From Bacteroidota bacterium (lineage in GTDB: Bacteria > Bacteroidota > Bacteroidia > Bacteroidales > P3): a DNA stretch of 64,000 bases. Made by a program: the position numbers and the translations under genes. Of this stretch, positions 62,216 to 64,000 are shown piece by piece. Numbering within the stretch: position 1 is the stretch's first letter; each line of letters begins with the position of its first letter. The DNA lies in NCBI GenBank assembly GCA_017860275.1, contig JAFNAQ010000003.1:186001-250000 (forward strand), read 5' to 3'. The notes under the pieces were generated by a model. It worked only from the letters and a program-made list of their open reading frames with translations. It did no database searches and was not told the DNA's origin.

Positions 62216-63439
62216 ATGCAAACACAGACAATTGCTCTAATAATTTTTGTAATCACTTATATAGGTATTATCTTTACAAGATTGCCTAAAATGAATATCG
62301 ATAGACCTTCGGCAGCATTCACTGGAGCAGTTGCAATGATATTGTTTGGAGTCTTAGATTTTCAAGAGGCAATAAACGCAATAGATTTCAATACAATTTG
62401 CCTTTTGCTTGGAATGATGATAATCATTTCCGCCCTAAAGATAGAAGGCTTCTTCTCACTAATAGCTTCCAGTACAATTGCCTTTGCCAATACTAGAACA
62501 AAACTACTCTCAGCAATTGTTTTTGTAACAGGAATAGCCTCTGCATTCTTGGTAAATGATGCTGTTGTATTATTATTTACTCCCATAATAATATCCATAT
62601 GTTCGAAAGCTGACATCAACCCTATACCATATTTAATCGCTGAAATTCTAGCATCTAATATTGGAAGCGTAATGACAATAACAGGTAATCCGCAGAATAT
62701 GCTTATTGGAATCAACTCTGGCATATCTTACCTAAACTTTATGCTAAAGCTACTTCCTATCTCAATCTTAGGAATGATAATAGTAATATTTATTGTAAAA
62801 CTATTATATCATAAGAATTTTAAAGATAAAACTCATTTGTCATTCAAATCTTCCTACTCATACTCTTTCAAAAAAATGCAACGCTCAATAATAATCTTTA
62901 TATTGGTAATCTTCGCATTCTTCCTTGGCAAGTTTCTAAATATCTCAATTCCTTTAATTGCTCTTGTCGGAGCGGCTTTAATTCTACTTATGGGAGAAGC
63001 AAAACCTTCTAAGATAATTAAAGAAGTAGATTGGGTTTTATTACTGTTCTTCTCCTCTCTCTTCATCGTTGTAGCTGCAATTGAAAAAGTCGGAATACTA
63101 AATCCTCTTCTTAATATTAATCTCTCTGAAAATATTCAAGGTATAATTGGCATACATAGTTTGAGTCTTATACTTTCGCAAATAGTAAGCAATGTACCTT
63201 TTACTGTTCTCATGCTCCCCATAATGAAAAGCATAAATAGTGAGACTCTATGGTTAGCCTTAGCCTCTGCATCAACACTTGCAGGCAATGCTACAATAAT
63301 TGGAGCAATGGCAAACCTAATAGTAATTGAATCTGCCGAAAAAGAAGGAGTAAAAATAAGGTTTTGGCAATTTTTTAAGATAGGAATAGTAGTCACCCTA
63401 ATCACATTTATTGTTTCAATATTAGTTCTACTTTTTTAA
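62216..63439 (+). CDS. SLC13/ArsB-type ion transporter
   Basis: A 407-residue membrane protein with about eleven helices of the IT superfamily (ArsB, CitM, SLC13). Typical blocks are VAMILFGVLDFQEAINAID (about 40-58), VLLFTPIIISICSK (about 118-131), the first-half NIGSVMTITGNPQNMLI (about 153-169) and the second-half STLAGNATIIGAMANLIVIE. These paired motifs bind the cation and anion in SLC13 structures. The substrate may be a dicarboxylate, sulfate or arsenite; it cannot be told. The gene lies 24 bp after the reduced methyltransferase and may share its transcript. Confidence 0.85.
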   Translation: MQTQTIALIIFVITYIGIIFTRLPKMNIDRPSAAFTGAVAMILFGVLDFQEAINAIDFNTICLLLGMMIIISALKIEGFFSLIASSTIAFANTRTKLLSAIVFVTGIASAFLVNDAVVLLFTPIIISICSKADINPIPYLIAEILASNIGSVMTITGNPQNMLIGINSGISYLNFMLKLLPISILGMIIVIFIVKLLYHKNFKDKTHLSFKSSYSYSFKKMQRSIIIFILVIFAFFLGKFLNISIPLIALVGAALILLMGEAKPSKIIKEVDWVLLLFFSSLFIVVAAIEKVGILNPLLNINLSENIQGIIGIHSLSLILSQIVSNVPFTVLMLPIMKSINSETLWLALASASTLAGNATIIGAMANLIVIESAEKEGVKIRFWQFFKIGIVVTLITFIVSILVLLF

Positions 63440-63613: not shown

Positions 63614-63753
63614 AAAATAAAAAAGGGACAGCGTTTCACAACGTGCCCCTTTATAAATTGTCTAATTTATCAATTAAACCTTTCCAATGAAAAGATCTAT
63701 TTCTTCTTAATAAGCAAGCTTATTAACACATAATTTAATTCTATTCAATTAAC
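63614..63753 (-). ncRNA. putative small RNA, unit 1 of a tandem pair
   Basis: The minus strand shows a -7 box TATCTTTG (63767-63760) and then about 140 nt with three hairpins. They are AATAAG/CTTATT (63709-63724), CTTTTC-ATTG-GAAAGG (63679-63694) and a terminator (63622-63652) with AAAGGGGCA, inner CGTT/AACG and TCCCTTT followed by a T-rich tail. A second copy lies at 63846-63990. No reading frame is convincing. Promoter, terminator, structure and duplication together point to an RNA gene. Confidence 0.6.
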
Positions 63754-63845
63754 TATTTGCAAAGATAAGTTCATTATTAATCAATAAAAAGCAAAAATGG
63801 ATGAGATGGTATTTTATCTATACAGAGTGGTAAAAAATACAGATG

Positions 63846-63990
63846 AAATAAAAAAGGGGTAGCGTTTCACAACGTACCCCTTTAGAAATTTAATCTAATT
63901 TATTAACCAAACCTTTCCTATGAAAGATTCCTATCTTATAATAAGCTTTTGTGTGCTTATTGTATTTGCATTTTGGATACGGACGTAATA
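63846..63990 (-). ncRNA. putative small RNA, unit 2 of a tandem pair
   Basis: This shares the layout and much of the sequence of unit 1, offset by about 231 bp. Hairpins are AATAAGC/GCTTATT, CTTTC-ATAG-GAAAG and a terminator (63853-63883) with AAAGGGGTA/TACCCCTTT, inner CGTT/AACG and the same TCAC-type loop. No TAnnTTTG box is seen upstream inside the window, so its promoter may be outside, different or lost. The 5' end is uncertain. Confidence 0.55.
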
Positions 63991-64000
63991 TACTCCCTTT

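Follow-up and report, generated by a model that had tools for sequence, protein, structure and literature searches.

The right edge of the window, by which we mean the whole stretch of 64,000 nt that was analysed (C87:186001-250000), carries a short sequence twice on its minus strand. A preliminary description took the two copies for tandem small RNA genes, and the question raised by this locus is what the repeated sequence is and whether either copy acts as a gene of its own. Repeat comparison within the window confirmed the tandem repeat with a period of about 231 bp: there are two copies, and the two main blocks are direct repeats of 45 nt (91% identity) and 32 nt (88% identity) with spacings of 231 and 233 bp. 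The exact 12-mer CGTTGTGAAACG in the hairpin core occurs twice in the window, where 0.03 occurrences are expected (up to one mismatch). Unit 1 lies at about 63619-63757 and unit 2 at about 63850-63990, both on the minus strand. Outside the unit, a convergent CitMHS/ArsB-type transporter gene occupies 62216-63439 on the plus strand (open reading frame; PF03600, E 1.1e-70). As had been described, each unit folds into three hairpins in identical order, of which the strong terminator is by far the most stable, and the folds of the whole units have z-scores of -3.3 and -3.6. The reported compensatory change in the terminator stem (CA/TG to TA/TA) does alter both sides of the stem between the copies, and one further difference converts a G-C pair to G-U. 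We consider it very probable that the repeated sequence is a 3' tail common to the members of a recently expanded family of genes for cargo proteins of type IX secretion (T9SS), with unit 2 as one such tail and unit 1 as its decayed tandem duplicate.

The identity of unit 2 is indicated by a reading frame that extends beyond the window. The contig extends for only 204 bp past the window, to 250204, and a minus-strand open frame of 90 amino acids runs from the contig end across the window edge to a TAG codon at 63931-63933. The frame matches TIGR04183 (E 5.5e-15, 55.1 bits vs a cut-off of 23) and PF18962 (E 9.4e-15, 55.1 bits vs a cut-off of 27), and the sorting-domain alignment reaches its last or next-to-last residue, which is the C-terminal placement of such a domain. 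Positions 63931-64000 (minus strand) are accordingly the 3' end of a T9SS cargo gene with a type A C-terminal sorting domain, the frame of which continues to C87:250204. Hairpin 1 of unit 2 (AATAAGC...GCTTATT) is the coding sequence for the last residues, NTISTQKLIIR. The stop codon and the terminator are separated by a 3' UTR of about 47 nt (63884-63930, minus strand), which comprises an AU-rich hairpin, namely the "middle hairpin" and "box" of the preliminary description, and is recognizable as post-stop sequence in common with the tail copies C34a and C108a. The intrinsic terminator follows at 63850-63883 (minus strand) with a GUGA tetraloop, one bulged C and a T-tract, as delineated by the fold and the alignment of nine copies. 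Read from its sequence, unit 2 is therefore a T9SS gene 3' end with its 3' UTR and a GNRA-capped intrinsic terminator, the gene running off the contig. The proposal of two small RNA genes is refuted for this unit, the first third of which is the end of a sorting-domain gene according to both the frame and the domain matches. A continuous protein frame in homologous loci, named beforehand as evidence against an RNA gene, is present in unit 2, C34a and C108a.

A covariance-model search of the genome found nine tails in four clusters, located behind four near-identical T9SS paralogs. C87 carries two of them (units 1 and 2), C34 has three at its start and a single one at 10.6 kb, and another three open C108; the first tail of each cluster is behind a T9SS gene. 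Besides that on C87, these genes are C34:3-530, C34:3586-10650 and C108:3-275. Further copies had been suspected past base 64000; no third copy was found in the remaining 204 bp of the contig, and the other seven are elsewhere in the genome. Among the about 70 T9SS sorting domains encoded in the genome, the tail is common to only four of the five that are most similar. The fifth paralog, on C71, adjoins an enolase gene (by eye) and has a terminator unrelated to the tail; its counterpart in a congener (L025), also beside enolase (by eye), has yet another terminator. The contigs C87, C34, C108 and C71 all end or begin inside these T9SS genes, a pattern compatible with the assembly having broken at near-identical repeats. 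The second tandem tail of C108 (C108b) also opens with decayed sorting-domain codons, indicating that the duplicated unit extends from the coding end through the T-tract.

Several features were observed around the C34 and C108 copies. Two nearly identical proteins of 74-75 amino acids are encoded after the triple tails (L010:965-1189 on C34 and L011:720-947 on C108); they look DNA-binding-like by eye, have no significant family match and have weaker paralogs on C95 and C48. Their near-identity implies that the duplicated segment took in at least the T9SS gene end, the three tails and this gene. Between the two T9SS paralogs of C34 (L010:1300-3573) lie a His_kinase (PF06580) protein, a LytTR response regulator and a second receiver-like protein (by eye), which are possibly regulators of the flanking paralogs. 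In the single tail at C34:10.6 kb (C34d), a deletion has taken out the end of the sorting domain together with some of the UTR, while the terminator is still there. The product of this gene has 2354 amino acids with fn3 and choice-of-anchor J domains, and at L010:10444-10650 the deletion joins the shortened sorting domain to the UTR, giving an end of FAKGVYGIDFD-stop; secretion of this protein may be impaired by the truncated domain. Behind the terminator of this gene (L010:10760-10845) are short tandem repeats of the form GCTAAGATGTGCATCT.

Conservation within the tail is confined largely to its terminator. The RNAalifold consensus of the nine copies retained only this element, and when it was removed the upstream parts had z-scores between -1.8 and +0.3, the other hairpins being individually weak. 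The middle hairpin had been described as keeping its pairing with altered bases. It can indeed be drawn with altered bases in most copies; its z-scores are -1.8 for the unit 2 UTR hairpin without the terminator and -1.7 for the corresponding stretch of unit 1 alone, and the nine-copy consensus does not retain it. The GC core and T-tract of the terminator are kept in 9/9 copies, and both units thereby have a recognizable intrinsic terminator. A simple terminator-consensus scan did not list it, probably because the scan disallows the bulged C. The coding DNA next to the C87 tail has diverged by 4.4% from the C108 paralog and by 4.8% from the C34a paralog. Divergence within the tail is higher, at 14% plus indels in the UTR part and 6-9% in the terminator, and most pairs of copies show better preservation of the hairpin than of the UTR. 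The visible constraint sits on the terminator and not on the rest of the tail, as expected for a terminator.

Unit 1 can be aligned with the same parts in a decayed state. Its intrinsic terminator (63619-63652, minus strand; from the fold, and within the 45-nt repeat) is predicted to be intact, and the UTR-like stretch with the middle hairpin and "box" is at 63653-63706 (minus strand, from the aligned copies). At 63707-63726 (minus strand) there is a perfect hairpin, TTAATAAGC-TT-GCTTATTAA; its fold, and its alignment to the ends of the coding sequences in C34a, C108a and unit 2, identify it as what is left of the final sorting-domain codons after decay. Unit 1 contains no reading frame, and by its sequence it is a decayed tandem copy of the unit 2 tail.

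The feature that sets unit 1 apart is the claimed Bacteroidota -7 box, TATCTTTGC, which is present upstream of it at 63759-63767 (minus strand), looks genuine and belongs to unit 1 alone. Motif counts in the window support this assessment. The motif TANNTTTG occurs at 3.8 per kb on intergenic strands leading into a gene vs 0.6 per kb on other intergenic strands, and by this enrichment it behaves as the real -7 element of the genome. The stricter form TATNTTTGC was found five times in 7.9 kb of gene-leading intergenic strand and once in 13.3 kb of other intergenic strand, this sole occurrence being the box at 63759-63767. The bases around the box are similar to the promoter regions of other, ordinary genes in the genome. 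On the minus strand no gene follows unit 1 before the convergent CitMHS transporter, and together with the promoter-like box this suggests that unit 1 may be transcribed alone. A species-specific orphan transcript of ~137 nt is thus possible. An ATG is located about 30 nt after the box; as a speculative alternative origin, unit 1 could be what remains of a T9SS gene that lost everything between its promoter and its tail by deletion.

The strongest competitor of the tail explanation builds on these features. It proposes that unit 1 alone is a young intergenic sRNA of about 137 nt (about 63753 to 63617, minus strand) that arose when a promoter came to stand before a duplicated T9SS tail. The -7 box is at the right distance, its surroundings resemble ordinary gene promoters, the terminator is intact and no gene follows. 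Strain-specific intergenic or 3'-derived sRNAs are, moreover, known in Bacteroides, where 27/49 high-confidence sRNAs are strain-specific and intergenic with a TSS and a terminator (PMC7366714). Against it, the -33 element has only 3 of 4 bases at the best spacing (by eye), reading of the sequence at the other tandem tails revealed no -7-type box, no relative is present in 10 congeners, and no significant structure precedes the terminator. We regard this proposal as unlikely. Such a newborn RNA would mimic the 3' UTRs of four surface-protein mRNAs as a decoy for a processing or binding factor, a role to which we assign an equally low probability; it could alternatively base-pair elsewhere. Compared with the intergenic and 3' UTR-derived sRNAs of B. 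thetaiotaomicron (PMC7366714), unit 1 is similar in having a promoter-like -7 box and a predicted terminator and no frame, while unit 2 differs in overlapping a coding gene in sense and does not qualify as an intergenic sRNA. At most, unit 1 would be of this strain-specific intergenic or 3'-derived kind. What survives of the original small-RNA reading is this possible orphan transcript of unit 1, with its promoter-like box and no reading frame; unit 2 overlaps a coding gene.

It is very improbable that the two units belong to a new structured sRNA family. The repetition, the three drawn hairpins and the compensatory terminator change are what such a family would display, but the initial part of unit 2 and of its homologues is occupied by the coding frame, the nine-copy consensus keeps the terminator alone, and homologues are lacking elsewhere. 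A covariance model of the UTR and terminator found no copy in 10 congeners. A search with the consensus DNA in 189 other genomes of the family gave short AT-rich matches in 4, none of them over the terminator. A conserved sRNA of the genus or family was rejected on these negative RNA-model and DNA searches, the weak matches being coding or short AT-rich stretches. The Rfam covariance search of the whole window returned only a tRNA above the cut-off, and the best sub-threshold match at the units was GcvB (16.4 bits vs a gathering cut-off of 42). The asserted absence of a known RNA family thus holds at the units, and it is explained if the element is a lineage-specific mRNA tail. FopS, paralogous multicopy sRNAs of Bacteroides with an R1 seed that are conserved across Bacteroidaceae (PMC11697453), likewise has several copies per genome and a terminator at the 3' end; in contrast, the present tail occurs in one species only, behind T9SS genes. 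The tail, set beside FopS by description, has no Rfam match. A widespread hairpin family was rejected, since the core had 27 matches in 84,980 genomes vs about 30 by chance (our own estimate), mostly in unrelated phyla; the few with T runs (L039, L049, L051, and L057) appear to be terminators of unrelated origin that share the GNRA cap. A phage origin was dismissed because matches in viral contigs have only the hairpin core in common, and a mobile element because the ORFs next to the C34 and C108 copies included no visible transposase and the copies are behind T9SS genes.

A T9SS gene end facing the transporter is nothing unusual for the genus. The same transporter is present in five congeners; by eye, the opposite strand downstream of it carries peptide chain release factor 1 in three, and in the other two it carries the end of another T9SS gene, whose terminator is an ordinary one. 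In favor of the tail explanation we counted these two T9SS ends facing the transporter, the 90-aa T9SS frame into unit 2, the location of all nine model matches in four T9SS clusters, and the divergence of the UTR (14%) relative to adjacent coding DNA (4-5%). Counted against it were the promoter-like box of unit 1, which a plain decayed tail does not need, and the middle hairpin that can be drawn in most copies despite changed bases.

Under the tail explanation, each tail would run from the final codons of the sorting domain through a short AU-rich 3' UTR to the GNRA-capped intrinsic terminator, and the copies would have arisen through duplication and exchange among paralogs. The hairpins would stop transcription of the cargo mRNA, and the second terminator, that of unit 1, may be a back-up or the end of a short orphan transcript from its own promoter-like box. 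The tail resembles intrinsic (Rho-independent) terminators in its GC-rich stem, GNRA loop, T run and position about 50 nt after the stop; unlike the usual case, two or three stand in tandem behind one gene and the loop sequence is nearly fixed across paralogs. A similar gene family is known in Porphyromonas gingivalis, where the gingipain/hagA T9SS surface-protein genes share near-identical repeats that break assemblies, and exchange between genes or strains has been proposed (PMC5266723). Here, too, several T9SS cargo genes have near-identical, assembly-breaking stretches. Unlike in gingipain/hagA, the shared part takes in the 3' UTR and terminator and includes tandem duplicate tails, and the cargo is an fn3/choice-of-anchor J protein instead of a gingipain.

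Overall the finding is mostly ordinary, with one loose end in the possible transcript of unit 1. At present it stands mainly as an annotation correction, a T9SS gene end in place of an sRNA. It illustrates that, when only a single window is read, the 3' tails of expanded surface-protein genes can pass for a structured RNA family. Should unit 1 prove to be transcribed, it would offer a readable case of the birth of a small RNA from a duplicated mRNA tail.
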